Origin: Ignavibacteria bacterium
GTDB lineage: Bacteria; Bacteroidota; Ignavibacteria; Tepidaquicellales; OLB5
Length of the DNA stretch: 64,000 bases
Direction of reading: 5' to 3'
Assembly (NCBI GenBank): GCA_017303675.1
Contig: JAFLBX010000001.1
Location: 1,871,970-1,935,969 of the forward strand
Positions 43,384-58,778 of this stretch are shown in pieces. The notes under the pieces were generated by a model, which saw nothing but the letters and a program-made list of their open reading frames with translations, made no database searches and had not been told where the DNA came from. The translations under genes were made by a program, and so were the position numbers. How positions within the stretch are numbered: the first letter of the stretch is position 1; every line of letters starts with the position of its first letter.

Positions 43384-44016
43384 TCACTCCCACTCCAGCA
43401 AATCATAAAACTTCATTGCATACCCGGCTATTAAATTAGCTTTATCAAGGCCGTTTATCATTTTCCGCGCTGAGCGCCAATTGGCTTTATTGCTTCCCAA
43501 AGGGAAAAACTGCTCAAGCCTGTAACCGGTGAACCATCCTTCAAGTATTCCACGGAAAGTTACAGCCAGATCGCATGCTGCATCTCTGATAATCATATCA
43601 GGCTCCCGGAATAACCTCTCATCCTTATAAATCTTCAGTGATGCCAGCCTGTAGTTAAAATCATGCGTCAGCTGAACCACCCTGCCTCTGCCATAATATG
43701 CAGTGCCTGATCTGCCGTTAGGGAAAATTGTCTTCAAAGCAGCGGGATTATTCTTTCTGTAATAATTATAAAGTGCCGTTATCCTTTTGCTTTCCGGTTT
43801 TATCCAGTAGCCTTCGGATACAGGCGCAAATGTATCATTGGATTCATGCATGGCAGTTGCTAAAATATATGCCAGCCATCTCAGACTTTTCATGTTTTCA
43901 TCCAAAGCAAATGCATCTGTTATGATAAATATATTATTCTTCCTTGCTTCAGTCAGTTTTTTCCCGAAATGCCTGTGGTAATTATTTATAAAGTGTTCTT
44001 TGTTGATCCGGCTCAT
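43384..44016 (-). CDS. Phage endolysin, GH19 chitinase-like
   Basis: 210 residues without signal peptide. The GH19 pattern includes ATAMHESNDTFAPVSEG (catalytic Glu region), AYYGRGRVVQLTHDFNYR (substrate cleft) and NKANWRSARKMINGLDKANL near the end. Phage GH19 enzymes cut the peptidoglycan backbone at lysis. It is the last gene of the cluster, downstream of a two-helix holin-like gene, the usual lysis order. The reading frame begins at ATG 44016. Confidence 0.85.
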   Translation of the reverse strand: MSRINKEHFINNYHRHFGKKLTEARKNNIFIITDAFALDENMKSLRWLAYILATAMHESNDTFAPVSEGYWIKPESKRITALYNYYRKNNPAALKTIFPNGRSGTAYYGRGRVVQLTHDFNYRLASLKIYKDERLFREPDMIIRDAACDLAVTFRGILEGWFTGYRLEQFFPLGSNKANWRSARKMINGLDKANLIAGYAMKFYDLLEWE

Positions 44017-44265
44017 ATGCTAAAACCCCCGTCTGAGAATTTATAAAATGATGTTTCCAGTACAATTGTTGTAAAATAAATATCCGCCTTTGGGCTTAAA
44101 TGAAGTTATAGATATGTTCATGTAAGTTAATTTGGTGTGTGCCTGTTTTAAATAAAAACAGGGGTCCAAAATATAATTACTGCTGTAATTTAATATTTGT
44201 AAGGACTGTGAGATCTTTCTGCTAAAGAAAGATTTTTCGGCAGCCCAAAGGCAGAATATATACAT

Positions 44266-44295
44266 TGTCACTCTGAGCGGAATCGAAGAGTGACA
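44266..44295. repeat. Inverted repeat, GTCACTCTGAGCGG type
   Basis: TGTCACTCT and AGAGTGACA are perfect 9-bp arms around GAGCGGAATCGA. It resembles a widespread intergenic repeat of many bacterial genomes and could act as a terminator. It lies between the holin and the endolysin genes; about 285 bp there hold no supported gene. Confidence 0.55.
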
Positions 44296-44301
44296 CAGCT
44301 T

Positions 44302-44514
44302 TTACGCAGCTTTATCACGCGCAGCTGCAGCAAATTTTATCCCTGATGCAACTACTAGCAAACCTGAAATTCCTCTTATCCATACTTCGGCACTATCGGG
44401 CAGAAAATTTATTATTGTGGGAGCTTGGTTAATTGCCAGAGCTAATGTCATAATGCCACCCCAGAGGGTTGTTCTCCAGTTAGCTCCGAATATTTCTTCC
44501 ATTATTTTTATCAT
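44302..44514 (-). CDS. Putative phage holin
   Basis: 70 residues with two hydrophobic stretches (TTLWGGIMTLALAIN and VWIRGISGLLVVASG) and a short charged tail, a small class II-type holin. It is just upstream of the endolysin. A later Met (44502) is an alternative start. Supported by topology and position only. Confidence 0.55.
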   Translation of the reverse strand: MIKIMEEIFGANWRTTLWGGIMTLALAINQAPTIINFLPDSAEVWIRGISGLLVVASGIKFAAAARDKAA

Positions 44515-44566
44515 AAGTGTTTTTTATAAAATTAGAATATTATTAATTAGTTTAATTTATTTTTCA

Positions 44567-44887
44567 TTATTTTAAATTTGTTATCAGGTTAATAATGCTT
44601 CTGATAGTTTCAACCACACCTGAGATCCAGCTTAAAAATCCAATTGGATCTTTTATCTTTTCAAATTCCTTTACATGTTTTTCGATCCTTTCTTTGTATT
44701 TTTCAGCCTGTTTCAGCCAGTAAATAAAACGGTCCTCAGCATATACAGGCGTAAGCCCGGCAGGCAGGGGAAGCTCGCCTTTAGTTACCCGCTGCCAGTA
44801 GCTTTTTTTCTTCTCAGCCCTGGCTAAGCCAAGTACATCTGTTTCCCTGTGAATGTTTATTGATACCGCTGATGTTGTTAATTCCAT
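44567..44887 (-). CDS. Hypothetical phage protein
   Basis: 106 residues with no recognised family; a charged helical middle (AEKYKERIEKHVKEFEK) and a hydrophobic C-terminal segment (IGFLSWISGVVETIRSIIN). A very good AGGAGG site (44893-44898) lies 5 bases before the ATG. It may belong to the lysis or host-membrane functions. Confidence 0.5.
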   Translation of the reverse strand: MELTTSAVSINIHRETDVLGLARAEKKKSYWQRVTKGELPLPAGLTPVYAEDRFIYWLKQAEKYKERIEKHVKEFEKIKDPIGFLSWISGVVETIRSIINLITNLK

Positions 44888-44918
44888 TTTAACCTCCTTT
44901 AAATTTATATTTCGCTCT

Positions 44919-45152
44919 TTACTTATTAATAAAGCTGTCAGTTTTAAGCAGTTCTCTTAGTTTTGCGTCACGGTGAATTTCATACCCGTTCTTAAAGCTC
45001 TTTTCGAGGGCGTAATCCGCGGCATGGAGCTTATACTCAACAAGCGTAAGCCGCTTTAAAATCCTGCGAAGCTGCTGCAGGATCATTCCCGCCGAAAGCA
45101 GCAGCAGCCATTTCAGAATTTCAGCTACGTAAGTGTTATTAAAAATTTCCAT
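44919..45152 (-). CDS. Hypothetical one-helix phage protein
   Basis: 77 residues with one N-terminal membrane helix (ILKWLLLLSAGMILQQL) followed by a basic helix, like a spanin or Rz-type or holin-accessory protein. An AAGGA site precedes the ATG. Position in the lysis region supports this, but no motif does. Confidence 0.4.
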   Translation of the reverse strand: MEIFNNTYVAEILKWLLLLSAGMILQQLRRILKRLTLVEYKLHAADYALEKSFKNGYEIHRDAKLRELLKTDSFINK

Positions 45153-45307
45153 TTTATTTCCTTATTTGAATTTAAATTAATTATCATCAGTAACGATTAA
45201 CAATTGCTGTTTCACATTCTGCGCTTTCTGCAGTCCCGCGTTTCTGCTTTGCGGGATCACCTTTGATATTTAACGTTTCACGTTTCACATTTCACGTTTG
45301 ACGTATA

Positions 45308-46651
45308 TCATCTCACCAGCATATAAGTTATCTGCGGCTTCGTTACAGCAATGTTTATTAAACCTGAATTCAGCACGCCTTTAACCTGTAAATAATATTT
45401 TGTGCCGGGCAAAGGATTGAAAAGAGTAAATGTCCTGCTTTTAACATGTGATTCAGGGTAATACCTTGTGCCGTCGTAAAATTCCCTGAATTCTTCAAGA
45501 TATGATGCGGGAATATCCACACTCAGCTCATTAACCATTCGCATTGTGATCGAATCCCTGGCAAAAATACCTGCCACTTCAGTGTAGGGGAATATCACAT
45601 TGCAGTTATATGTAATATGATACAATCCCCGGATCGGCAGAGTTATTGTATCACAATCATTCCACAATGCATCTGCAAAGATCTCAAACGGCGTTTCATC
45701 ATAGGTCATATCAGCATGATTCATAACAGTAAAGCTATCCTTTGCGGAAATTACTCCTGTTTCACTTACAGATGTATAATACCACTTCCAGTCAGGGTAG
45801 GGCAGTGGATTATTCCAGAAAGGCTTTCTGAGGCTTAATGTTCTGTATTTGCTGAGCGGTTCACCAAGTGAAAACCAGGTAGAATCCTTAAGCCCCGTAA
45901 AAATTTTAGCGGCAATGCTGTCCTGGTTCAATACTGCTGAATTCAGGTTCAGCCCGGTTACGGGTGACCAGGTAAATTGGGCGGGATTCATTTCAAACAG
46001 CTGGCCGTTCCCGCGTTTTGCAATTCTGAATGTCCCCAAAGTTCCAGGAGTGTTGAAGTAAAGCCTGTTCTCGCTTTCGCTGTAATAAACAAATTCACGC
46101 TTAAGGTATAATGAATCACCGGCGCTTCTGAAAAGCATTCCTGTTCCGGGTATCTGTGAGAGATCGCTGTACCAGGGAGAGGAATTTATGATATATGGCC
46201 TATAAAATGTGTTGGTAGTTCCGCTTCCGCTGTAAAGCCAGTTGCCTGTTGATGATGCGCTCCAGTTCCCTGTGGTGTTTTTGCTTCCTGTAATAGTTTG
46301 TGTAGTGCCAAGAGTTACATAATTGCTGTTTAGGTAACTAAAAATATTGCCTGTTAGTACGCTATCGAACCAGGTTTGTTCAATTCCCCCAAGCCACAGC
46401 TTAACATAACGGAATTCACTGAATCCTTTGGCAACGTAGTTGCCTGCTGTGCCAATTTCATTTACGGTAATACCGCTTATCTTATCCGCAGGGTAGTTAT
46501 GCGGGTATTTTGTAAATTCTATATTACCAGCTTCGCCGGTTAACGGCGTGCCTGATGATGTGACAAGCCTTATCGGCAGGGATGTAAATTGAGCAGATAG
46601 CGGTATCTGCACAAGCATAATAATTGTAAGAATTAAAAGTAATTTTTTCAT
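45308..46651 (-). CDS. Fibre-like phage protein with Sec signal and C1q/TNF-like tip
   Basis: 447 residues. It begins with a typical Sec signal peptide (MKKLLLILTIIMLVQIPLSA), unusual for a virion part. The middle has low-complexity Gly/Ser/Thr sequences (TTGNWSASSTGNWLYSGSG) typical of trimeric fibres. The last 120 residues, GLYHITYNCNVIFPYTEV to LQVKGVLNSGLINIAV and a final TYMLVR, resemble the jelly-roll of C1q/TNF-like trimers. It is probably the receptor-binding protein or a host-exposed surface factor. Its place after the tail tip genes fits a fibre. Confidence 0.55.
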   Translation of the reverse strand: MKKLLLILTIIMLVQIPLSAQFTSLPIRLVTSSGTPLTGEAGNIEFTKYPHNYPADKISGITVNEIGTAGNYVAKGFSEFRYVKLWLGGIEQTWFDSVLTGNIFSYLNSNYVTLGTTQTITGSKNTTGNWSASSTGNWLYSGSGTTNTFYRPYIINSSPWYSDLSQIPGTGMLFRSAGDSLYLKREFVYYSESENRLYFNTPGTLGTFRIAKRGNGQLFEMNPAQFTWSPVTGLNLNSAVLNQDSIAAKIFTGLKDSTWFSLGEPLSKYRTLSLRKPFWNNPLPYPDWKWYYTSVSETGVISAKDSFTVMNHADMTYDETPFEIFADALWNDCDTITLPIRGLYHITYNCNVIFPYTEVAGIFARDSITMRMVNELSVDIPASYLEEFREFYDGTRYYPESHVKSRTFTLFNPLPGTKYYLQVKGVLNSGLINIAVTKPQITYMLVR

Positions 46652-46662
46652 AAAGAGTGATT

Positions 46663-46765
46663 TAGTTGATAGTTTAAGTTTATAGTTGATAGTTGATAGT
46701 TTACAGTTGATAGTTTATAATTGATAGTTTAAAGTTTAAAGATGATAGTTCACGGTTTATAGGTG
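46663..46765. repeat. Tandem TTGATAGTTTA spacer repeat
   Basis: At least four exact copies of TTGATAGTTTA, in irregular tandem, fill the spacer between two phage genes. Similar simple repeats fill other spacers in the cluster. Confidence 0.7.
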
Positions 46766-46778
46766 TAATTATTAATTA

Positions 46779-47312
46779 TTATTCTCCACCTTCAATTGGT
46801 AAGATCGTACCGCCGCCCGGATTTTCATATTGCGGGGGGAACCATTTAAGATCGGGCTCAAGCCTTGCTGAGCGGAATATCAGCACCGGCAGCCTGTGCG
46901 ACCGGGCAAAGGCTCCGCCTTTGTTCAGTCCAAGCTCAAGGGTTTCATTTGCAAGAATCACTTCAAACTCCCGCCACGGCGCATCATCACGCGGCTGAAG
47001 GATTATCTTCCATCCAGCTTTTGCCGCATCAAATATTTTTTTGAAGCTTTCATACAAAGTTCTGCCTGTTATCCAGCGGTTATAATTAAGCGTAAAAGTT
47101 ATCATGTAGCCTATTATTCGTTGGGCGTTGATTATCTGCGGTTGAGCGGGATCAAGGCTTATCAGCTCATGGGATATCTTTTTTACTTCATAAGTTTCAG
47201 TTAATCCCTGTGAATTTGTAAGCGGCAAAGTTAATGTGATCTCAGTTTCAAGCTCCGGGTCCGCTGATACCAGCTTAACAACAGGCCGGCCGCAGCCGTT
47301 TATTATACTCAT
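46779..47312 (-). CDS. Phage tail-tip or baseplate protein
   Basis: 177 residues, no signal peptide. It lies between the large tail protein (47841) and the fibre-like gene, where distal tail proteins are found. The sequence is beta-rich (ITLTLPLTNSQG, GYMITFTLNYNRWI, EFEVILANETLELG). No family is recognised, so the call is from position and composition. Confidence 0.45.
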   Translation of the reverse strand: MSIINGCGRPVVKLVSADPELETEITLTLPLTNSQGLTETYEVKKISHELISLDPAQPQIINAQRIIGYMITFTLNYNRWITGRTLYESFKKIFDAAKAGWKIILQPRDDAPWREFEVILANETLELGLNKGGAFARSHRLPVLIFRSARLEPDLKWFPPQYENPGGGTILPIEGGE

Positions 47313-47375
47313 ATTATTTTATATATAGGGTTTGTTAAAAGATTTATTTTAATTGAAAATTTTTAAGGTTATAGT

Positions 47376-47383
47376 TATTTTTG
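47376..47383 (+). promoter_or_regulatory. Own promoter of the plus-strand lipoprotein in the phage cluster
   Basis: TATTTTTG matches the TAnnTTTG box 22 bases before the lipoprotein ATG, so that gene can be expressed without the late phage operon. Confidence 0.55.
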
Positions 47384-47404
47384 CGTTAACTAATTTATTA
47401 CTTT

Positions 47405-47851
47405 ATGAAATTTTTAATCATTTGTTTTACAGTTTCTTTCATTTATCTCTTCGGCTGCGGCAGCGATTCCACTACAAATAACGGTAATACAGGTAATGGC
47501 GAAACTGTGATCTTTTCAATGGATAGCTTGAGTATATATTTGAATAGTAGTATTGTTATTAATGATACATTATTTGATATATTAAATTCACCTTCAATAA
47601 AAATTGATTTTAATTGCCAAACCAATGCTGATTCCGTTAACAGTTTTGCATTATTTAGGATAATCGCTGGTGATAGCAATATAGTTTATAAAGATACTTC
47701 AAATAACAATATCTCTTCTTTGAATAATAATCATACAATTTATATATCAGCTTCAAATACATTTACACTTTCAATTTTAATTCAATTAAACCGAACTAAT
47801 AATTTGCAATATTTCATGAAACTAAAGAATATTAAAGTAATTAAAATTTAG
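47405..47851 (+). CDS. Lipoprotein on the opposite strand of the phage cluster (moron candidate)
   Basis: 148 residues. Signal peptide with lipobox FGCG, then an Asn/Gly/Thr-rich linker and a beta-rich domain of about 110 residues without recognised family. It is the only gene inside the structural region that runs on the plus strand and it has its own promoter box. Its last 11 bases overlap the end of the tail gene at 47841. Such inserted genes in prophages (morons) often alter the host surface or block superinfection; that is an inference. Confidence 0.65.
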   Translation: MKFLIICFTVSFIYLFGCGSDSTTNNGNTGNGETVIFSMDSLSIYLNSSIVINDTLFDILNSPSIKIDFNCQTNADSVNSFALFRIIAGDSNIVYKDTSNNNISSLNNNHTIYISASNTFTLSILIQLNRTNNLQYFMKLKNIKVIKI

Positions 47852-49244
47852 AGATTTCAATTTCCATTATATTATTTTCTAAATCCAGATTATAAATAGA
47901 CGTAATCATATAGACTTGATTATTTTTTAAACTTATTGTCTTCCATAATTTTATAATATCATGATTATTTAATTTAATCCTTAATATATATATTGACCGT
48001 GAATGATAATTATACATCGAATAGTTTAAAATTGAATTTTCTTGTACAGCAACAAAATCGTAAAGGTCAGGAGCACCATTATGATATCTTGCACAATTTA
48101 TTATCCTTGAATAAGCTAACCCTCCATTTAAGGCTTCAACTAAAGGAAATAATTTTCCAATCGGTATACTCGGTGTAAACTCATACCCATACAACTTCAA
48201 TCCAAAATCTTTAAAATCAATATCCTTCATAACGGTTTTTTCTGTAACCTGGTTTGAATTAATGTAACTGAGCCGTTTACCGCTGAAGGTTAATGCGCAG
48301 GTGGGGAAAAGCGTTTCGCCATCACCGTGATTAGTATCACTCTGGTATACAGTATCTTTGTTAAAGAATATTCCGTCACTGTATTCGCCTTCGGGCAGTA
48401 CAAAGCTTCTGTATTTCAGAAACAGCCATTCAAGCCTGGGAGCGCCTATTGATTCACTTATCTCAATGATCTCAGGCTCTACCGCTTCCTGCCCGGCAAG
48501 ATCAGTAATAAAAAAAATGTTAAAAATGAATTCCGGTTCATTCAGTTCTTCAGTTCCGGGATTTATGAACATCTCAAAATTGAATCCCAACCCTTTGGCA
48601 AGTTCTTTAAAGGTTTCCCAGCGGCTGATATTATCCTGCCCTGTGATAAAATTCCTGTAATCACCGAGTGCGTAACACCACTGTATATTGCTGTATAATT
48701 CCCTAAGCCGCTCAAGATAAGTTTTTTGCGGCAGGCTTATAGTTACCGTTCCCGATGTAAGTCCCTCAAAATGCCTTAGGATATATTCTTCAAATGTAAG
48801 CTGCTCGCCGTTCGCAAAGTTTATAGTTGAATTAGCCGCTGCTTCGCAGCGTTTTGCCCACTCCATTAATATATCTTTGCACGTCAGCTTAACAAACCAG
48901 CGGTTTTGAGAGTACGTATAATCAGCCTGCACGTGTGACTGCTGTGATATACCGCAAAAGCTTTGCTGCCCGAACTGCAGTATAACAAGAAAGTAAAAAT
49001 CACGCTCTTCCCCAAGAAAAAATTCCCTGATATTTTTACCTGCATTTGATCTTTCCTGCTGAAGCAGGGAAATATTCAGGTCAAAATCACCAGCCCTGAA
49101 TGTCCCGGCTTCCGCCGGGTCTTCAGTTTCAAACCTGAATACCGGCAAACCATCTGTTGGAATATGTTCGAGCTTTAAGGAATCAATAAATTCCCTTTGA
49201 GCAAAGTAATTGCTGCCGCGGAATTTTTTTATATATACAGGCAT
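47841..49244 (-). CDS. Large phage tail protein (distal tail or tip)
   Basis: 467 residues, beta-rich, no signal peptide. It begins MPVYIKKFRGSNYFAQREF and overlaps the upstream gene by one base (stop and start share TAATG), so they are coupled. It is likely a tail tip hub or distal tail protein because it follows the tail assembly chaperone and tape-measure candidate. No family signature seen. Confidence 0.5.
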   Translation of the reverse strand: MPVYIKKFRGSNYFAQREFIDSLKLEHIPTDGLPVFRFETEDPAEAGTFRAGDFDLNISLLQQERSNAGKNIREFFLGEERDFYFLVILQFGQQSFCGISQQSHVQADYTYSQNRWFVKLTCKDILMEWAKRCEAAANSTINFANGEQLTFEEYILRHFEGLTSGTVTISLPQKTYLERLRELYSNIQWCYALGDYRNFITGQDNISRWETFKELAKGLGFNFEMFINPGTEELNEPEFIFNIFFITDLAGQEAVEPEIIEISESIGAPRLEWLFLKYRSFVLPEGEYSDGIFFNKDTVYQSDTNHGDGETLFPTCALTFSGKRLSYINSNQVTEKTVMKDIDFKDFGLKLYGYEFTPSIPIGKLFPLVEALNGGLAYSRIINCARYHNGAPDLYDFVAVQENSILNYSMYNYHSRSIYILRIKLNNHDIIKLWKTISLKNNQVYMITSIYNLDLENNIMEIEISKF

Positions 49245-49801
49245 TACAGGTCAATTCCTCCTCTAAGGCTCCGCGTTCTTACTTCAACATCGAATGCTTT
49301 TGTAAAGGTAACCGGATTTTTGATAATTACCTGGTTTATCATTTGGGGTGATTGCGGATGTAACTGCATCGATTGTGAGTTAACCCTACCTGAAGTACTG
49401 CCCAAAAGTGTCCCTATACCTGTTCCGGCAGCAGCGCCTAACGGACCCCCAAATATTCCTCCGATAACTCCAAGCAATCCGCCGAAGATTCCGCTTCCAG
49501 TACCTGAACCGGTTATTGAACCTAATAATTGAACAATAAGCTGAACGGTTTTTGCAAAACCGGAATCCATTACACCCATATTGGACATCATATTTTTTGT
49601 AAATCCCAGCATTTGTTCAAAATAACCCGTTATCTCATATACAGCATTAATCGGCTTATCGTTCACGGATAAAAACTTTCCAACGGAAATATTTTCATGA
49701 TTAACAGGGTTTAAGCTTCCTGAAAATTTCCGGTTAAGGTCATTTATAAACCTGTTCAATCCTGAAGTAAGTTCATTTATTTCAGCTGATGTAAATTGCA
49801 T
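49244..49801 (-). CDS. Very short tape-measure candidate
   Basis: 185 residues, starting right after the tail assembly chaperone, the place of the tape-measure gene in siphoviruses. It has an amphipathic helical N-terminus, then a Gly-rich hydrophobic stretch (IFGGLLGVIGGIFGGPLGAAAG) as in membrane-inserting parts of tape-measure proteins. At about 1.5 angstroms per residue it would only measure about 28 nm. If correct, the particle would have a very short tail. It could also be another minor tail protein. Confidence 0.45.
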   Translation of the reverse strand: MQFTSAEINELTSGLNRFINDLNRKFSGSLNPVNHENISVGKFLSVNDKPINAVYEITGYFEQMLGFTKNMMSNMGVMDSGFAKTVQLIVQLLGSITGSGTGSGIFGGLLGVIGGIFGGPLGAAAGTGIGTLLGSTSGRVNSQSMQLHPQSPQMINQVIIKNPVTFTKAFDVEVRTRSLRGGIDL

Positions 49802-49812
49802 TTTAATTTTTG

Positions 49813-50082
49813 TTAGTTTTCCTGTTTTAGTTTTAAGAAGAAAAGATTCTTAGCCTGCTCAAGCTCTTCAAATTTTAACGTATGCCAGAAATCAATTTCC
49901 CGCAGCTTTGCTGCTTTGCCCGGCGAAAGCCCGTAATATTTTGCAAGTGACCATATCATAAAATTATATAATTGTTCATCAGGTATTTCAAATTTTTCAG
50001 GCAAAGGAATTAATAATTCGTTTTGAAGCTTAAAGCTGTTTAAAAAATTATCTATTTCCCGTTTAGAGCCGGCAAGATCAAA
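49813..50082 (-). CDS. Tail assembly chaperone, -1 frame extension (GT-like)
   Basis: Ninety codons in the -1 frame of the upstream gene, with no ATG of their own (the first possible start, TTG 50004, is inside them). The sequence D-L-A-G-S-K-R-E-I-D then KLQNELLIPLPEKFEIPDEQ and LAKYYGLSPGKAAKLREIDF continues unbroken from the slippery site. It joins the gpG-like first 161 residues to make a 250-residue product, the gpGT arrangement of lambda-like tails. Confidence 0.78.
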   Translation of the reverse strand, partial: FDLAGSKREIDNFLNSFKLQNELLIPLPEKFEIPDEQLYNFMIWSLAKYYGLSPGKAAKLREIDFWHTLKFEELEQAKNLFFLKLKQEN

Positions 50083-50564
50083 AAAAAACTGCTGATCACC
50101 TTCCTTATAAATTCAAGGGCATCCCCGGCTTTAAGTTCTTCAGCCGTAAAATTTACCCTATCATCCGCCTCTGCAGGCAATAGCATCCTGTTAAACAGCT
50201 CAGCTATAAACACTGAATCAGTAATTATTTCATACAGGGCAAGTGCTTCCATATCTGATACATACTGCCTCAGTGTTTTAAATTGGGGAGTTTGAAGCTT
50301 CGCTTCAGCTTGATTATATCTTTCCTGAAGCTTGTTTTTTGCAGTTATATCAGTAGTTTTATTTTCATCCATTTCATCAATCGCTTCATTGATGATATTT
50401 AATTCATTTTCTGCTTCGTCAAGTGCTGTTGTATCAATATTGCATGTATATTTATGATGAAGCTCCCTGTATTTTATTAAAAGGGGAGAGGTTCTGTGAA
50501 GCAGGTCAAGATCAAAGTTCCTAAGCCTGTATTTCTTCCCGTTAAATTCAAAAATATTTTTCAT
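50052..50564 (-). CDS. Tail assembly chaperone, short form (G-like)
   Basis: 170 residues, an alpha-helical charged protein (LDEAENELNIINEAIDEMDE). It sits between tail-tube and tape-measure candidates. A run of nine T lies 9 codons before the stop: the frame reads AGT-TTT-TTT-TTG, giving a T-TTT-TTT heptamer. Slipping back one base leads into the extension at 49813. This is the classical tail-assembly chaperone pattern, in which a small fraction of ribosomes makes the long form. Confidence 0.75.
   Translation of the reverse strand: MKNIFEFNGKKYRLRNFDLDLLHRTSPLLIKYRELHHKYTCNIDTTALDEAENELNIINEAIDEMDENKTTDITAKNKLQERYNQAEAKLQTPQFKTLRQYVSDMEALALYEIITDSVFIAELFNRMLLPAEADDRVNFTAEELKAGDALEFIRKVISSFFLILPALNGK
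50080..50088 (-). promoter_or_regulatory. Programmed -1 frameshift slippery site
   Basis: Nine T residues on the minus strand contain the canonical X-XXY-YYZ heptamer T-TTT-TTT in the zero frame. Zero-frame translation ends 9 codons later (TAG, 50052-50054); the -1 frame stays open for 90 codons. Confidence 0.78.
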
Positions 50565-50676
50565 ATATGTAAATTTTTCAATTACTAAGTTTATTCATTG
50601 TTTTTTTTTAATCCGAAATCAACAATTCAAATTCTGATATTCCAAATCCTGCAGTCTGTAACCTGTCACTTTTAAC

Positions 50677-51234
50677 CTACACCTCTGTTTCCACTATTAC
50701 ATGCTCCTGCTCAGGTGGAATAGTAACCGGTCCTGTTGTCCTGATGTTAACTCCCAGAGCTGCTTCTATTGCTGTTATATCAGCCGGTGAAATTATCACC
50801 GGTAAAGGCTGAATAACAGAAACTGATTCATATTTCATTGCTTTTGTACCGCCGGGAGTTTTAAAGCTCATTTGCGGTGTAACATCTGCAATCTTAAATA
50901 TTTCCTGGTGCTTGCCGCCTTTGATGCCTTCGTATTTAATTTCAAGGTGAAGTTTACCTCTTGTGCCAAACGCCAGGTAATCTGCCAGCAGCTTTGATGT
51001 TTCCATCAGCACTCCGGTTGTTTTGCCTTCATACTCTTCATCCTGACCGTATGTTCTGCCGTCTTCAGCTTTGAATTTTTCTGTTTTGGTTTCAATATCA
51101 ACTGCCGATTCGAATATTAATCCGCAGTTCAACGCGTTTACTCCGTTTGTAATTGTTCCGGGCAGGCCCAGCTCTTCATCATATTCAATTATTACAAGCT
51201 GGTTACCGCCTTTATCCCTTAATGCTCTTGACAT
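50677..51234 (-). CDS. Putative major tail (tube) protein
   Basis: 185 residues, beta-rich, no signal peptide. The opening KGGNQLVIIEYDEELGLPGT and the later LHLEIKYEGIKGGKHQEIFKI are typical of beta-barrel tube proteins. It lies upstream of the chaperone pair. The function is inferred from gene order. Confidence 0.55.
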   Translation of the reverse strand: MSRALRDKGGNQLVIIEYDEELGLPGTITNGVNALNCGLIFESAVDIETKTEKFKAEDGRTYGQDEEYEGKTTGVLMETSKLLADYLAFGTRGKLHLEIKYEGIKGGKHQEIFKIADVTPQMSFKTPGGTKAMKYESVSVIQPLPVIISPADITAIEAALGVNIRTTGPVTIPPEQEHVIVETEV

Positions 51235-51242
51235 GATTTTTT

Positions 51243-51335
51243 ATAGTTAAAGTTTATAGTATTAATAATTATTTATTCATTTTCTTCAATCATCACTCAT
51301 TGTTCATTGCTAATTGCTCATTGATCATTGCACAT
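51243..51335. repeat. CATTG-rich spacer repeat 1
   Basis: A string of CATTGNTCATTG units fills the spacer, overlapping the last codons of the gene ending at 51325. The same kind of repeat occurs at 54051. Confidence 0.6.
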
Positions 51336-51786
51336 TGCCAAACACCTGCAAATCAAATACTGCCACTGGTAATAAATACTCGCCGCCTTTGTATGCTTTT
51401 TCTAGTCCGCTGAGTGATAAATTATGAATATTAGCAATTGTTATTCCGTCTGAAGTATGCTCAAGTCCGGATGCTGTATCATCAATTAAAATTCCGCAGA
51501 GCCTATAGAGCTTATCATCAATTATTTTCTGGTAAAATTCACCCGGTTTTTTATAAAGCCTGAAATGAAATTCGATATTAACTTTCACATTTATTTCTTC
51601 GGATTCATTATCTGTGAAAGTTACTTCCCGGAGTTTGATGAAATATGAGTTATCTTTAAGGTTCAGCGGCAGCATATCAGTATCAAAGTTTAAGCTTGAT
51701 TCCGCCAGCTTTTCTGCTTCAGAAAGTGTTTCGTTTAATAAAGATATCTTACCGGTTACCCAGCTTTTTATTACATTATAAAGCAT
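51325..51786 (-). CDS. Putative tail terminator / head-tail joining protein
   Basis: 153 residues, mixed alpha/beta (MLYNVIKSWVTGKISLLN, then INVKVNIEFHFRLYKKPGEF). In siphovirus order it precedes the tail tube, the place of tail terminator or neck proteins. No family signature. Confidence 0.45.
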   Translation of the reverse strand: MLYNVIKSWVTGKISLLNETLSEAEKLAESSLNFDTDMLPLNLKDNSYFIKLREVTFTDNESEEINVKVNIEFHFRLYKKPGEFYQKIIDDKLYRLCGILIDDTASGLEHTSDGITIANIHNLSLSGLEKAYKGGEYLLPVAVFDLQVFGNVQ

Positions 51787-51790
51787 GTTT

Positions 51791-52480
51791 TTATTTTAAA
51801 ATTCTGATATTTGTTACAGTATTGAATTCATTACTGCTTAAGCTTCCGCTGCCGTCTCTATCTGCCCAGATACGTATCCTGTTCAGCAGAGTTTCATATT
51901 CACCCCTGAAATATTTCATCTTCAGGTGGTAAGAGTCATTTTCTTCAGTGAAACGGTCAAGCAGGATAAGCTCAAGCCATTTGTACATAACCAGCCTTTC
52001 GATACCTGTATCACATAAAAATGCATCATAATCAATTGAACCGCCGGTTACTGATACATTAAGCCTGTAAAATAAATAAGAGGATCTCAGTAAAAAAGTA
52101 ATTGTGCCGATGCTTTCAGCTTTCCTGGTATCAAGCTCTTTCCACAGAGTTTTATCATTGCTTCCAAGCAGAGTAAATGTTTTCAATCCGCCGGGTGTAA
52201 AAGATCTTACATCAAGTACATATCTCAGCCTGGCTGCTTCATCTTCGCTTTCGGTTTCTGAAGAATGGTCAGCTGTTTCTGTAATTCCTGAATGCCTTAT
52301 ATATTGCCTTGGCATAATTTCCGCCGGCTTAAAACCCCGGTTGATCAGCTCAGTTCTTACTTCGCTTATTGCCTGCTGTTTTTGCGGTGAGTAGTCAGCT
52401 TCTTCAGCCCAAAGGTACCGGGAAAGCTCAGGTATTATACTTTTAAGGTCAGCTTCAGTTATATATTCTTCCAGGGGCAT
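51791..52480 (-). CDS. Putative head-tail connector with EF-hand-like loop
   Basis: 229 residues. Starts PLEEYITEADLKSIIPELSRYL, similar in feel to the N-terminus of Mu gp36-like (DUF1320) connectors, then a helical part and near the end DRDGSGSLSSNE, a complete EF-hand calcium loop (Asp, Asp, Ser, Gly, Leu, Glu at positions 1, 3, 5, 6, 8, 12). Calcium-dependent assembly of neck proteins is possible. The gene order (right after capsid and a small gene) supports a connector role. Confidence 0.45.
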   Translation of the reverse strand: MPLEEYITEADLKSIIPELSRYLWAEEADYSPQKQQAISEVRTELINRGFKPAEIMPRQYIRHSGITETADHSSETESEDEAARLRYVLDVRSFTPGGLKTFTLLGSNDKTLWKELDTRKAESIGTITFLLRSSYLFYRLNVSVTGGSIDYDAFLCDTGIERLVMYKWLELILLDRFTEENDSYHLKMKYFRGEYETLLNRIRIWADRDGSGSLSSNEFNTVTNIRILK

Positions 52481-52517
52481 ATTGTTTAAGAGTTTTAATT
52501 ATTGTTTAAGAGTTTAT

Positions 52518-52871
52518 TTATTTTTTATTTGTTCTTTCAAATTGTGGTGCTGCTGAAGAAAAGAATTTTTTCCTGAAATCAGCTATCTGCCTGGTGTTAA
52601 GAACTACCACCCCCGCAATAACAAGCTGGTAAAGCTGCACATCACTCAGACCTTCGAATTTACCGGAAACAGTTCTTTGACCATTCACAAGAACAAAGCC
52701 TTCTTCTTTGATGATATTGATCCTTTCATTCCTGCGGTTAAAACCTTCACCGAATAAATGAGATACCACCATAAAATTATCACCATCTATCAGCGCGCTG
52801 TAACCGTTTGGCGAATTCAGTATCACCGGGTTAATTTCATAAATTTCTGTTTTGTTTGGGTTATCGCTCAT
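52518..52871 (-). CDS. Hypothetical phage protein after the capsid gene
   Basis: 117 residues, beta-rich with DGDNFMVVSHLFGEGFNRRN. No family recognised. Between capsid and connector genes, so possibly a head decoration or capsid-completion protein. Confidence 0.45.
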   Translation of the reverse strand: MSDNPNKTEIYEINPVILNSPNGYSALIDGDNFMVVSHLFGEGFNRRNERINIIKEEGFVLVNGQRTVSGKFEGLSDVQLYQLVIAGVVVLNTRQIADFRKKFFSSAAPQFERTNKK

Positions 52872-52980
52872 AAGAATTTTAAAGTTTTATGTATTTTATT
52901 CCCTGCCCCTGTTTGAGAGGGCAGGGAACATAAGTTAATTGAAGTAAGAGTAAAACAGCATCATATTTGCAAGAGTAATA

Positions 52981-53994
52981 TTACTGTGTCTTCAGTTCCG
53001 CTATCCTGATAAGCTTATCGGGTGCGACCTTCTGCCAGTTACTGCCGGTTGCAAGCTGGGCAAGTGTTGGATTTTCAGGCGCAGCGTCTTCCCATGCAAC
53101 GCCGGGGGTGTGAACCATACAGGATATCCTTGTGATGATCTCATCAGTACCGCCAGCCTGTTTTGCATCACGCGTTAGTTCAAGATGTATTCCGCCGGTT
53201 TTAATGACGTTCCTGTTCGACATTGCGCTTCCCGGCCTGTTGCGGAGCTTATACACCATTGAACCTCTTCCGCCCAGGAATGTTGAATATACACCTGCAG
53301 TTGCAGTAAGGTCATCATCTGCAAAAGGCATTAAACCGAGTATTTGTCCGGGGTTGCCGGTAATAAATGTATTGCTGCCAACCGGTCCGGCAGGAAATGT
53401 GATAAGATTATTTGTTACTGCATCACCGTGAACTTTAGAATGCATAAGTATAAGGTTAAGCATCCTGTGCCAGTCTCCCAGCTTGTATTTAGCTGCAAGC
53501 ACACCGGCATTTGTAATTGCAGCGCCTGAATAAGTATTGCCTGTTGAGTGGCTTGAAGCAAGGGCAGTGGCAAAGTTTCCTTTTAATACATTTATTGCGC
53601 GTTTTTGCAAAGCGTAAGCCCAGTACTCGCCAATATGAACTGCAATTTCTTCTATCATATCGCTGCCTCTTCCTGCAACGGTATTAACTAGCTCCTGCGC
53701 GCCCCAGCCTTTTTCCAGCTCCATCCAGGCAAATCGGTCTTTGTAAGCTGAAAGCTTGTTGATAGTTGTTGTAGATGAAGTTGTTATCTGGTCAGGGTCG
53801 CTTGTATCGGTGTTCCATTGCGGCAGGTTGCCGAATGTACCCGTCTGGTTCGGGTCAACAACTTCATCAGGCGCTTCCGTTAAAAATCCTGAGCCGAAAA
53901 AGCTTAACGCTTTGGTAAATGTTCCGCGCAGTGTGGCTTTAAATGTCTCACTCTGGAATTTACCCGCCAGGTCATCCAATGTTAATGATGCCAT
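52981..53994 (-). CDS. Major capsid protein
   Basis: 337 residues, start MASLTLDDLAGKF. Its composition and gene place (after scaffold) indicate the major capsid protein. Portions such as GFLTEAPDEVVDPNQTG and LGDWHRMLNLILMHSKVHGD recall HK97-fold capsid proteins of siphoviruses. The fold cannot be confirmed without structure prediction. Confidence 0.7.
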   Translation of the reverse strand: MASLTLDDLAGKFQSETFKATLRGTFTKALSFFGSGFLTEAPDEVVDPNQTGTFGNLPQWNTDTSDPDQITTSSTTTINKLSAYKDRFAWMELEKGWGAQELVNTVAGRGSDMIEEIAVHIGEYWAYALQKRAINVLKGNFATALASSHSTGNTYSGAAITNAGVLAAKYKLGDWHRMLNLILMHSKVHGDAVTNNLITFPAGPVGSNTFITGNPGQILGLMPFADDDLTATAGVYSTFLGGRGSMVYKLRNRPGSAMSNRNVIKTGGIHLELTRDAKQAGGTDEIITRISCMVHTPGVAWEDAAPENPTLAQLATGSNWQKVAPDKLIRIAELKTQ

Positions 53995-54050
53995 AGTTTT
54001 TCTTTCTGTTTAATTAAGTTTGTAAAAGTGTTGGTTTGTTAGGTGAATCG

Positions 54051-54165
54051 TTTTTAGCTATGTGGTTAATGAATTAATCGGTTATTAGGTTAATAAGTTA
54101 AAAGGTTAAACGGTTAAATGGCTCATCATTGCTCATTGTTCATTGTTAATTGTTAATTGTATGTT
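54051..54165. repeat. GGTTAA/CATTG spacer repeat 2
   Basis: GTTAATAGGTTAATAAG-like units followed by GCTCATTGTTCATTGTTAAT, filling the spacer between the capsid and the scaffold gene. The second half matches the spacer at 51243. Confidence 0.6.
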
Positions 54166-54166
54166 G

Positions 54167-54676
54167 TTAATCATTAAAACCAAATTTTTCCCTGTAGAGC
54201 TTTTTCCAAAGTTCCGGTCTTCGTTTTCTCAATTCTTCCTTTTCGTTATAGGTAAGCTCATCCCATTTTCCTGTAAAATTATCTCCTGTGCCTGCGCCGG
54301 GCCTTGCTGAATCGCTTCCGGCGGGCGGCTTTGCCGCGTTTAATTTCACATATTCTCTTAAGCCTTCAATTGTTGGTATCAGCTCAGCAATTTTTTTATG
54401 TTCATCAGGAAGCTGCCCGTAATATTCCTTTTTAACTTCACTTTCAAGCAAAGTAAATTTATTTTCTGTCTCAGCTTTTTGTTCCGTAAGGTTTTGTATG
54501 CTGCCTTCAAGCTCTTTTATTTTATTTTCAAATTCTGCTGAAGTTTCTTTTAGTTTCGAGAATTCACCTGATTCTTTCACAAGTTTTTCATGCTCAGCTT
54601 TTGTGATCGTAACATTTTCTTCTTCTGCGCCGCTGATGCCGGATGAACCTTCACCGGGGTAATAAAGTATTTTCAT
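54167..54676 (-). CDS. Putative capsid scaffold protein
   Basis: 169 residues with a long coiled coil (KLKETSAEFENKIKELEGSI, LTEQKAETENKFTLLESEV) and a basic helical C-terminus (KEELRKRRPELWKKLYREKF). That layout and the position between portal and capsid are typical of phage scaffold proteins. Confidence 0.7.
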   Translation of the reverse strand: MKILYYPGEGSSGISGAEEENVTITKAEHEKLVKESGEFSKLKETSAEFENKIKELEGSIQNLTEQKAETENKFTLLESEVKKEYYGQLPDEHKKIAELIPTIEGLREYVKLNAAKPPAGSDSARPGAGTGDNFTGKWDELTYNEKEELRKRRPELWKKLYREKFGFND

Positions 54677-54701
54677 TTGTATTGATGTTTAATATTATTA
54701 T

Positions 54702-56063
54702 TTAATTACTGTATGATCTGTTTTTGCGAATATTTAAGATCGCTTTTGCTTCCTCTTCGCTTATTTCAAGCTCTTCGGAGGTAATATCAATTTTATCTTT
54801 GTATCCGTATTCCAAAGCCATATCATAACGTTTCTTTTTGTCATCAGGTGTTTCAAACAGGTTGGATTCTGTAAAGCTTATTTCAAAATCTTTATCTTCC
54901 GGCAGTGCCTGTGATGGATTGTATGTGTTCCACACCATTCTGATAACTTCAAGCAGCTCTTTCATAAAGTGATACAGTATGGTTTTATATTCTTCACGGC
55001 GTTCTATAAGCTCAAGCTCATCAATTTTCTTCGCAGCGCCTGATTCAGCGGTAATTTCAGTTGATACAGAATTACCGCTTATGCCTTCGCTGTTCAAAAC
55101 AAGCTTGTTATGCCAGTCAATATTATCCCTTACTGATGTATAATCTGCCTTTGCAATGATGCTTTCTATTTTCGGTTCCCTGTCATCTTCTTTCACATTA
55201 TTTATCTGTTTGAAATCACCTGCTTTAAAGCTTTCGCCATCAGAAAAATTTGTGTTTATTCCCAGGTAGATCTGGTGCAGGGTTTTAAGCTCGGTTTCGT
55301 TAAGGTCTGTTAGCCTTATATCAAGGTTCTTCTGGTGAAGAAAAACATTCCAGTTTGGTTCGCCAAAGTAATCATCTCCTTCCTCAATTCTCAAAGCTGC
55401 AAAAGGCAGTGCAGATCTTCCCGAACCAGATTTTTTGTAAGGATTAACCATATCATTATTGCCGTTTGCCGGGATGATATTATCACCTTTTACAAGGTAA
55501 TGGCTGCTTTCACTCCAAACAGACCAGTAAATTTCGCCGTGTTCATCAGCTTTTCTTACCGCAATTTTGGTTTTTTCAAGGTAGTCGTTGCCCGTTTCAA
55601 CAGTATAGTTGTTCGGGGTTATAATATCTATTCTTAATTTATTTAATGCTGAATCCCAGATAACATTGGCTTCTACAACATTAAAATATACAGCTTTCCT
55701 GAATGCTTCCCTGACTTTTTGAGCAAACCTGCACTTTTCCAGCAGGCTGCTGAATAATTTTTGTTTTTCGCTGCTTAAGCCTGAAAGTGATAATATGGGG
55801 TCTTTTGTAAAGATACCGCTTGTTGTTCTGTTGATAATTTTTCTTATGATATTAAGATGCCTGAACTTCAGGTCTTTAAGGGTTTCTTCTGAAAAAGGAT
55901 TGTTTAATGTTGCTTCTCTTAAATATGAACATATAGCTTCATAGTCATTATTATAAAATGCGGCAAATTCTTCATAAAGTGAAAGCCTGTGAATTTCACT
56001 TTTCCTGATGCTGCCTGCAAAAGCCTTGTTAAGTTCGTTAAAAATATTTCCTGTTAAGAGCAT
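54702..56063 (-). CDS. Portal protein
   Basis: 453 residues, cytoplasmic, mostly helical. It follows the large terminase by 20 bases and precedes the scaffold. Size, helical content and the acidic C-terminal part (LEISEEEAKAILNIRKN) suit a portal of the SPP1-like kind. I see FNVVEANVIWDSALNKLRID and KIDELELIERREEYKTILYHF, but no signature that names a family. Confidence 0.7.
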   Translation of the reverse strand: MLLTGNIFNELNKAFAGSIRKSEIHRLSLYEEFAAFYNNDYEAICSYLREATLNNPFSEETLKDLKFRHLNIIRKIINRTTSGIFTKDPILSLSGLSSEKQKLFSSLLEKCRFAQKVREAFRKAVYFNVVEANVIWDSALNKLRIDIITPNNYTVETGNDYLEKTKIAVRKADEHGEIYWSVWSESSHYLVKGDNIIPANGNNDMVNPYKKSGSGRSALPFAALRIEEGDDYFGEPNWNVFLHQKNLDIRLTDLNETELKTLHQIYLGINTNFSDGESFKAGDFKQINNVKEDDREPKIESIIAKADYTSVRDNIDWHNKLVLNSEGISGNSVSTEITAESGAAKKIDELELIERREEYKTILYHFMKELLEVIRMVWNTYNPSQALPEDKDFEISFTESNLFETPDDKKKRYDMALEYGYKDKIDITSEELEISEEEAKAILNIRKNRSYSN

Positions 56064-56083
56064 AATTGTTTTTAGTTAAAGTT

Positions 56084-57436
56084 TCAGATCGTTCTAAATG
56101 TACCTGTTACAGGTTTGCCGCGTATTGGATATTCATAATCATTGTAATAATCTACTGCCCTGCATAAATGTGTTCTCACGGGATCTCTGTCATCAAGCTC
56201 TCTTCCGTTATCTTTCCAGGAGCAGTATTCCCAGTCTTTAACCAGCCCGGGGCAGTTAAGCGGATCGATATACTGTCTTATCTCTCCCATTGAATTGCAT
56301 AGCTGCGCATTTGTTGCACCAATTGAATCACGTATTGAAAGGCAGGGCTTTATTCGTTTTTCAATTCCTGTTTTGCTGCTGAAATAAGTTTCAATGATCT
56401 CCCAGTCATTATAGCTTGAATTGGAAGTATGTTTCCTGCCTGCATAATCACCGTAAAAAATTATTTGTTTAGGATATCCGCCTTTTAAGCTCTGGAAGAA
56501 ATCTTTATCCAGTATCCTGCACATTGTAATTGTATTAGTAAATTGAAAGCTTAGCTCTTTATGCCAGCAGGTTATTTCTGCACTGCCCTGTTTGATCTTT
56601 TGACCTATAACCCAGCTCATTGGCTTATCACCAGCGTTGAAATCACATGCAACTATAATAGGTAAGTGAGGAAATATCTCCGTTTGTTTATTGTTTTTTT
56701 CTGTGTAACTGTAATACGGGCGCTGAACCGCTGTTTCAAATGATGCTTTGTATTCACGATCGTAATCAGGCTTCGCCAGGTTTGATCTTGCTTCTTCTAT
56801 CTGTTCAGTACTTAGAATATCTTCACTAGTCCAGTGGTATGAATTCCACCCTCTTTTTTTATGTTTTCCTTTTAAGAAATCGTCAAAGAAATGATTTTTC
56901 CCGAACGGCCTGCCTTCTTTAATACACCATCCCCTTGTATCATTTATCATCGGTTCTATCGATTCATTATAAACCCCAGGGCTGCAATCCTGGTATTCTG
57001 ATATCACAATTCCGTGCATTAACTGCCCCTGTACCCGTTTAAATTCCTTTAATCCAATTACCCTTAGGATACATCCGTTATTAAAATAAATTTTCAAAGC
57101 TGTTTCGCTTATCTTCATTACCAGATTGCTCTGGGCAAGCTTTTTAAGGTCATCCCAGAAGATCTCCTTAGCCTGTTGCCTGGTTGGAGCTCCGGCAAAA
57201 TACATTTTGCGTTTGTTATATGGTTCCATGCATTCATTTATAATGTATCTCTTTGCAAATCTTTCTGTTTTGAATGACCTTCTACCGGCTGCTATTATAT
57301 AATTCCTGTACCTGTTTGTCTTAAGGTCTTCAAGCAGTTTTTGCTGAACAGGGTGATTCATAGCCCTGTTATTAATTTCAAACCACCTATCGGAAAGCTC
57401 AAAGTCATTACCGGAATTAAATGATTGCATTTTCAT
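56084..57436 (-). CDS. Terminase large subunit (ATPase and nuclease)
   Basis: 450 residues. The ATPase domain (about 40-230) has the P-loop AGRRSFKTE (G51-T57; the second Gly of GRRxGKT is replaced by Phe) and Walker B region GIVISEYQD. The nuclease domain (about 250-440) has IIVACDFNAGD and IIFYGDYAGRK, matching the RNase H-like Asp set. It cuts the DNA and pumps it into the head. The gene overlaps nothing but starts one base after the small subunit stop. Full length. Confidence 0.88.
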   Translation of the reverse strand: MKMQSFNSGNDFELSDRWFEINNRAMNHPVQQKLLEDLKTNRYRNYIIAAGRRSFKTERFAKRYIINECMEPYNKRKMYFAGAPTRQQAKEIFWDDLKKLAQSNLVMKISETALKIYFNNGCILRVIGLKEFKRVQGQLMHGIVISEYQDCSPGVYNESIEPMINDTRGWCIKEGRPFGKNHFFDDFLKGKHKKRGWNSYHWTSEDILSTEQIEEARSNLAKPDYDREYKASFETAVQRPYYSYTEKNNKQTEIFPHLPIIVACDFNAGDKPMSWVIGQKIKQGSAEITCWHKELSFQFTNTITMCRILDKDFFQSLKGGYPKQIIFYGDYAGRKHTSNSSYNDWEIIETYFSSKTGIEKRIKPCLSIRDSIGATNAQLCNSMGEIRQYIDPLNCPGLVKDWEYCSWKDNGRELDDRDPVRTHLCRAVDYYNDYEYPIRGKPVTGTFRTI

Positions 57437-57437
57437 T

Positions 57438-57935
57438 TTATATATTCGCTTTAGCCTTAGCTGAAAATTCTTTATGTTTTACAAGGAATTCTTCATAAGA
57501 TAGGTTGTTTTCCTGTGTTTCCGGGTTTTTGCTCCATCTCTCAGGTCTTCTGTTGTTAAGTATATATACTGCCGCGGTATTATCCGGTGGAATATATTTT
57601 TTAACATGTCTTACTTCCTTCAGCTTTAGTTCTGGTATGCTATTTTCAGGTATATCTTCAGAATATACAGGCACGTAGACCTCTGTAATTTCTGTAGTAT
57701 CATACCCTCTTGCCTTCCTTACAAGCGCTTTTTCTATCTCAATGCAGCATGTAAGCTCTGCATTTAAAAATCTTTTAGAAAAATCTGCAGATCTAATAGC
57801 AAGTTTTTTTAATGCTCCCTTTGCCAGCATTAAATACTCTTCAGCTTTTTCCATAGTGAGCCCCACGGAAGCAAGTTCGATTGCCGAATTTTTGATATCA
57901 CTGCCTGAATCTTTTGAGCTTGGTTTTTTCTTCAT
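57438..57935 (-). CDS. Terminase small subunit
   Basis: 165 residues. The core ALVRKARGYDTTEITEVYVP with KEVRHVKKYIPPDNTAAVYI and LNNRRPERWSKN matches terminase small subunits, in which the last motif precedes the C-terminal oligomerisation part. It gives sequence recognition of the packaging site (or general DNA binding in gene transfer agents). First gene of the late operon, divergent from the repressor. Confidence 0.78.
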   Translation of the reverse strand: MKKKPSSKDSGSDIKNSAIELASVGLTMEKAEEYLMLAKGALKKLAIRSADFSKRFLNAELTCCIEIEKALVRKARGYDTTEITEVYVPVYSEDIPENSIPELKLKEVRHVKKYIPPDNTAAVYILNNRRPERWSKNPETQENNLSYEEFLVKHKEFSAKAKANI

Positions 57936-57983
57936 AAGGAAACAAGTTTTAAAATCTCTAAACTATTTTAAGGAAAATATTGT

Positions 57984-58033
57984 TATATTTGCATAGCATT
58001 CAAACAACGTTACAAATATATATGCAATTAGCA
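57984..58033. promoter_or_regulatory. Divergent promoters and operators of the phage cluster
   Basis: A plus-strand box TATATTTG (57984-57991) and a minus-strand box TATATTTG (58013-58020) face each other, giving overlapping promoters for the repressor and the late operon. TGCATAGCA (57990-57998) and TGCAATTAGCA (58023-58033) have inverted TGC/GCA arms and are the most likely repressor sites. Confidence 0.5.
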
Positions 58034-58103
58034 CATATGTCAAGAGCAATATATGGTAACAGCATATTTATTTTCATAAATAATTGATAAACATAGAATA
58101 AAA

Positions 58104-58778
58104 ATGAAGAAAAAAAGTAAAAAAGACCGTTCGCTTACCCGCAGAATTAATGATAAGCTTTTCCCTATGCTTTCGGCAAAGGGTATCAATTCCATTTATG
58201 CGCTTGCGCTAAGCATTAATGAAAATGCAGGCTCTTTGAGCAAGATCAAAAGAGGACTGAGCGACTGGACCATAGACCAGCTTGAAAAAATCAGGGTAAT
58301 TCACGGAATAACAGTGGATTCCATGTTCGGCGCTGAATCCAAAAGCAGGGCAGATGGTGAAAGCAAAAATGTTAAGTTCCGCCGTGTGCCTGTTCTTGGT
58401 TATGCGGAGTGCGGCTCGCCTTCGGCAACCTGGCTTGATAATGCTGTAAAAATCACTGATCTCTCTGATACAGGCTCTATGGTAAATCCATTCATACTTA
58501 TCGCCAAAGGCGATTCCATGAAGCCTTATATTAACCCGGGCGATAAGCTGCTCTGCAGTGAGCATACTGAAAAGATAAAAGATAACACTGCTGTTGTTGC
58601 TGTATTCAAGTCGACCCCCGATACTTTTGAAGCCAATGCCAAGCTTATTAGCTGGGATAGAAAGAAAAAGCTGATAACGCTCTACAGCATTAATACAAAA
58701 TATCCGCCTACGAACCATTTGGAAAGTGAATTTGTTAAGATATACAAGCTTAACAGGATAATAAGGGAAGTAAAGTAG
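58104..58778 (+). CDS. S24-type (LexA/CI-like) self-cleaving repressor
   Basis: 224 residues. N-terminal helix-turn-helix (about 10-70) followed by a peptidase S24 domain: Ser138 in AKGDSMKPYINPGD and Lys180 in ANAKLISWD are the catalytic pair. The cleavage-site region YAECGSP has Cys103-Gly104, 34 residues before the Ser, the same spacing as Ala-Gly in LexA. Self-cleavage after RecA activation would switch on the divergent late operon. It is the only regulator of the cluster. Cys at the cleavage site is unusual but not disabling in known family members. Confidence 0.88.
   Translation: MKKKSKKDRSLTRRINDKLFPMLSAKGINSIYALALSINENAGSLSKIKRGLSDWTIDQLEKIRVIHGITVDSMFGAESKSRADGESKNVKFRRVPVLGYAECGSPSATWLDNAVKITDLSDTGSMVNPFILIAKGDSMKPYINPGDKLLCSEHTEKIKDNTAVVAVFKSTPDTFEANAKLISWDRKKKLITLYSINTKYPPTNHLESEFVKIYKLNRIIREVK

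Follow-up and report, generated by a model that had tools for sequence, protein, structure and literature searches.

Conserved candidate −1 frameshift site in the putative tail assembly chaperone gene of an apparently vertically inherited phage-like cluster in an Ignavibacteria genus

A run of nine T residues near the 3′ end of a candidate tail assembly chaperone gene in an Ignavibacteria genome raises two questions: whether two overlapping reading frames are joined here by programmed frameshifting, and what kind of element maintains them. The window, which is the whole stretch of DNA analyzed, comprises 64,000 nucleotides, and the candidate gene lies on its minus strand throughout. The features of the gene are as follows.

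50052–50564, minus strand: zero-frame open reading frame, candidate tail assembly chaperone (G-like product), 170 aa with an ATG start; nine homologues
50082–50088, minus strand: slippery heptamer T_TTT_TTT in the zero frame, within the T9 run at 50080–50088
49813–50082, minus strand: −1 frame extension (T-like domain), 89 codons plus stop; fusion of 250 aa

The zero-frame ORF starts with the ATG at 50564 and continues for 170 codons to the TAG at 50054–50052. The T9 run is read in this frame as AGT TTT TTT TTG, and nine codons lie between the heptamer and the TAG. An open −1 frame spans 50112–49816 (99 codons from stop to stop, 89 of them after the slip) and ends with the stop at 49815–49813, so that 161 zero-frame residues and 89 residues of the extension add up to the 250 aa of the fusion. 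Counting codons after the slip, the first TTG of the −1 frame in the window is codon 26 and the first ATG is codon 41, both within the conserved domain. The first-pass annotation had described the T9 run with its zero-frame heptamer nine codons before the stop, an open −1 frame without an ATG of its own, and a 250-residue product. The coordinates and lengths computed here agree with it throughout, and the strand (minus), which had gone unstated, can now be added. An AlphaFold model of the zero-frame ORF is mostly helical, with a pLDDT of 88. An SD-like element, AAGGAAGG, is located ten bases upstream of the T run (window 50099–50106, minus strand), with a spacing to the slip site that resembles that of dnaX; several homologues lack it.

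In-frame T_TTT_TTT heptamers occur nine times in the 57 long ORFs of this AT-rich window (38% GC), which also contains two runs of nine A or T. Since the heptamer is not rare in such a background, it is weak evidence alone, and the decision falls to comparison. Among 99 related genomes searched, nine homologues beyond the window were identified: eight belong to the same genus and one (G038) to a different family within the order. A contig end truncates one genus homologue, and the comparison set therefore consists of the window and eight full-length genes, i.e. eight genus members and G038. The identity of the genus proteins to that of the window ranges from 28% to 51%.

All nine full-length sequences contain GAT or AGT followed by TTT TTT T in identical codon phase, with T9 in seven and T8 in two, both of the latter being genus members. 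The zero-frame stop follows the slip site by nine codons in each of the eight genus members and by eight in G038, while the −1 extension continues for 88–93 codons after the slip. In all nine, the −1 frame begins without a start codon, and the ATG position common to all of them is codon 41. The fusions align end to end, and 12 of the 23 invariant columns are found from F162 onward, in approximately one third of the protein (the 89-residue extension). The T run and the open −1 frame, which the annotation had proposed looking for in homologues, are kept in all eight full-length genus genes and on one phage-like contig of another family; neither a separate start for the second frame nor loss of the T run, which it had named as grounds for rejection, was seen in the nine sequences. 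Across the sequences compared, the agreement goes well beyond chance. Additional overlapping frames were found in other phage-like loci. A related gene, L085 (G003:C24), has exactly T7 (GAT TTT TTT ACC), with its −1 frame laid out in the same way. A phage-like contig, L086 (G035:C266), also carries chaperone-like overlapping frames with T7; its overlapping frame is in the +1/−2 phase and it was discounted as support. Matches in G302 and G242 are weak, and the G302 locus (L087) has no phage context.

The extension is under purifying selection. Among the three closest species, its dN is about 0.17–0.18 and its dS 0.78–1.01, with dN/dS of about 0.16–0.24, compared to about 0.12–0.15 for the zero-frame part. 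As a codon control within the gene, we collected the alignment columns with a two-fold degenerate residue common to six or more sequences. Of these 16 columns, 13 use both synonymous codons, and the only invariant ones are D169 (GAT, 8/8), F170 and F171 (both TTT, 9/9), which make up the slippery site. As the sequences are related, this comparison carries no formal probability, but most species pairs have a dS close to saturation or beyond it. Here the frameshift acts as a sequence-level meter of function: synonymous constraint on the slippery codons shows that selection has acted on the tail genes of a phage-like cluster that is present genus-wide and apparently immobile.

We consider it very probable that these features reflect programmed −1 ribosomal frameshifting that makes a tail assembly chaperone of the lambda G/GT kind; the mechanism itself is of an already known kind. 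According to this model, most ribosomes would complete the 170-aa zero-frame protein, while a minority, with the P and A sites occupied by the Phe codons of T_TTT_TTT, would slip back by one base (tandem tRNA-Phe slippage on U_UUU_UUU) and read 89 more codons, resulting in a 250-aa protein with an extra C-terminal domain. Judged by gene position and the analogy to lambda gpG and gpGT, the short protein would coat the tape measure, and the long one would also recruit tail-tube subunits. The analysis directly shows the anatomy of the site, how it is conserved, the purifying selection on the extension and the synteny, whereas the occurrence of frameshifting, its ribosomal nature, its rate and the chaperone function are inferred. 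Tandem −1 slippage on U_UUU_UUU fits all nine sequences. In E. coli, U_UUU_UUU is reported to be a weaker slip site than A_AAA_AAG (PMC5009743). No conserved downstream RNA structure was detected across the homologues, the one strong z-score (−4.2, L008) being unshared, and an Rfam search of 49700–50700 gave nothing credible.

The fusion could alternatively arise if RNA polymerase added or dropped a U on the T9 run, giving a mixed mRNA pool that encodes the long product. T runs longer than eight are associated with transcriptional realignment in bacteria (PMC3711429), a length that most of the nine sequences reach, and the lack of an RNA stimulator of ribosomal frameshifting conserved among the homologues points in the same direction. 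Polymerase slippage is weakened, however, by the two species with T8 and by the T7 of L085, all below that length. Moreover, the T_TTT_TTT tandem phase, which a polymerase does not need, is kept in every sequence, although the conserved Asp codon partly dictates this phase. We therefore regard transcriptional slippage as improbable and a ribosomal event as the likely one. Far less probable still is that the two frames are separate genes, with a start for the downstream one, or that the split is a sequencing error or the mark of a pseudogene. Homopolymer runs are indeed prone to sequencing error, and three of the nine sequences have a TTG 26 codons into the −1 frame; but an identical split recurs in nine separate assemblies, conservation reaches the slip codon, the sole ATG shared by all lies within the conserved domain, and the extension is selected as described above. 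Ribosomal frameshifting thus remains the preferred reading.

The gene belongs to a 15 kb cluster that runs from terminase to lysin (window 43384–58778) and includes the following neighbors.

43384–44016, minus strand: GH19-type endolysin, far end of the cluster (phrog_181, E=1.5e-13; PF00182)
49244–49801, minus strand: candidate tape measure protein, 185 aa, by position and a glycine-rich hydrophobic stretch (weak match to phrog_167, E=0.0012)
50677–51234, minus strand: candidate tail tube protein, 185 aa, by position (71–88% identical across the genus)
52981–53994, minus strand: major capsid protein (phrog_247, E=1.9e-44; PF20036; 89–94% identical in the genus)
54702–56063, minus strand: portal protein (phrog_533, E=6.8e-11)
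56084–57436, minus strand: terminase large subunit, TerL (phrog_2, E=3.9e-27; in 13/13 genus genomes)
57438–57935, minus strand: terminase small subunit (phrog_309, E=7.3e-16; 28–42% identical in BLAST alignments within the genus)
58104–58778, plus strand: S24-type repressor, divergent and adjoining the cluster (phrog_4, E=2.6e-14; PF00717; 75–92% identical in the genus)

The chaperone label is assigned by analogy. In lambda, gpG is accompanied by gpGT, produced via a −1 frameshift; the tape measure is bound through the G part and the tube protein through the T domain (PMC5009743). The first-pass annotation had placed the window gene between tube and tape measure in the manner of G/GT. This holds for the order, which is found in eight of eight genus members; a sequence or fold match to a chaperone did not emerge, and the labels of the neighbors are mostly positional. 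Specifically, Pfam and PHROGs scans of both frames returned no chaperone match, nor did searches with the fusions against PHROGs, the PDB and phage records, where the PDB profile search gave coiled-coil noise only. Matches of the zero-frame model to PDB libraries by Foldseek and VIA-align 2 were rejected as helical-bundle noise (Z <8, residues 15–148). A sub-threshold Foldseek hit of this model to the chaperone of Arthrobacter phage Kitkat (TM 0.43/0.46, E 2.1) is a lead only. Neither the zero-frame protein nor the capsid protein had a relative in searches of viral contigs. The tail tube candidate has no family match in profile searches, and its fold prediction has a pLDDT of 37. The tape-measure candidate is 182–188 aa in every species read. 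A tape measure protein accounts for about 1.5 Å of tail length per residue, a figure that would predict a tail of roughly 28 nm for a protein of this size. The small terminase (28–42%) is far less conserved than the large one (about 67–78%).

The cluster appears to occupy one chromosomal site across the genus. TerL is on one contig with the same Crp-family gene in 12 of the 13 genus genomes, and a contig break separates the two in the remaining one (G005). Gene order is kept among the species with long contigs, and ORFs are otherwise open where the contigs reach. The cluster is absent beside Crp1 in two sister-genus genomes that carry this gene (G013 and G014), and a search of 197 genomes detected no capsid protein outside the genus. 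A second, distant terminase-like match (28%; G004:C61:35622-36140) is present in a genome that also holds the cluster. Both the TerL and the RpoB tree contain the clades G000+G002 and G006+G009 (+G011), as well as G010 with G012, whereas G001 and G003+G004 are placed partly differently, with some branches weakly supported. Since the gene trees largely follow RpoB, the cluster appears to be vertically inherited by the host genus.

Genes have been lost in one genome and possibly in a second. A deletion in G007 (L136; G007:C105, 6553–6987) joins TerL codon 71 to codon 405 of a 447-aa gene, and the portal, capsid, tail and chaperone genes are gone. The G001 contig (L033; G001:C10, 2990–3249) jumps from a truncated 229-aa gene to a 106-aa gene, with the tail genes missing; this join is located at a short AATGAACAATGAGC-like repeat and may be a misassembly rather than a deletion. 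Such losses suggest that the retention of intact copies elsewhere is not simply a default. The annotation had concluded that the tail genes are still functional or recently were, and this can be put more strongly, as most of the genus retains an intact cluster that is under purifying selection. The position of the chaperone gene in an apparently vertically inherited head-tail-lysis cluster likewise argues that the tail machinery is under selection. The genus probably still builds, or recently built, a small phage-like particle, and the evidence of an inherited, selected phage-like cluster is of more interest than the frameshift.

As to the nature of this particle, the cluster, known here from its genes alone, resembles a gene transfer agent (GTA) or a domesticated prophage. 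A tailocin was considered and rejected in view of the terminase, portal and capsid genes. We applied the GTA definition of PMC9662315. Structural proteins derived from Caudoviricetes are represented by the terminase, portal and major capsid matches; endogenization with mostly vertical inheritance, co-diversifying with the host, is indicated by the presence of TerL in all genus members, the Crp site and the trees. We give slightly less than even weight to the tentative proposal that the cluster encodes a functional GTA in a genus of uncultured Ignavibacteria, that this GTA is independent of the lineages already known, and that its tail is very short and depends for its assembly on the conserved −1 frameshift. 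Somewhat behind it stands an ordinary cryptic prophage that has persisted by chance and yields neither a GTA nor another particle serving the host. Such an element would readily account for G007, whose deletion begins inside TerL and takes in most of the 447-aa gene, and for the tail-less assembled contig of G001. It fits less well with the genus-wide presence of TerL, beside the same Crp gene wherever one contig covers both, with otherwise open ORFs under purifying selection and a largely host-like tree, with the lack of an integrase among the cluster genes examined, and with a tape-measure candidate fixed at 182–188 aa. The rest of the probability falls to some other host-serving particle, neither GTA nor cryptic prophage. 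We found no papers pairing gene transfer agents with Ignavibacteria in the open-access literature. GTAs outside Alphaproteobacteria are hard to find, and their detection leans on similarity to known ones (PMC11841831); a conserved chaperone frameshift in a vertically inherited cluster would be a similarity-free marker that can be searched for elsewhere.

Among known systems, lambda gpG/gpGT shares with the window the order of tube candidate, chaperone and tape-measure candidate, and a −1 extension without its own start, from which short and fused products are predicted. It differs in that the window slip site is T_TTT_TTT within a T8–T9 run, the window protein has no detectable sequence similarity to known chaperone families, and the tape-measure candidate of the window is only about 185 aa. 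A closer relative is the phage-like contig G038:C69, from another family of the same order, which has a homologous chaperone with the T9 site and a −1 extension, as well as a homologous tube candidate (42%). In contrast to the window, the tape-measure-like ORF of this contig (L020) has 1034 aa and is accompanied by other phage genes. Compared to RcGTA, BaGTA and other GTAs, the cluster differs in its host, an Ignavibacteria genus, and is likened to them by features of the cluster rather than by gene sequence. What it has in common with these agents is a compact, caudoviricete-derived head-tail-lysis cluster, without an integrase among the genes examined, apparently located at one chromosomal site and inherited with the host genus.
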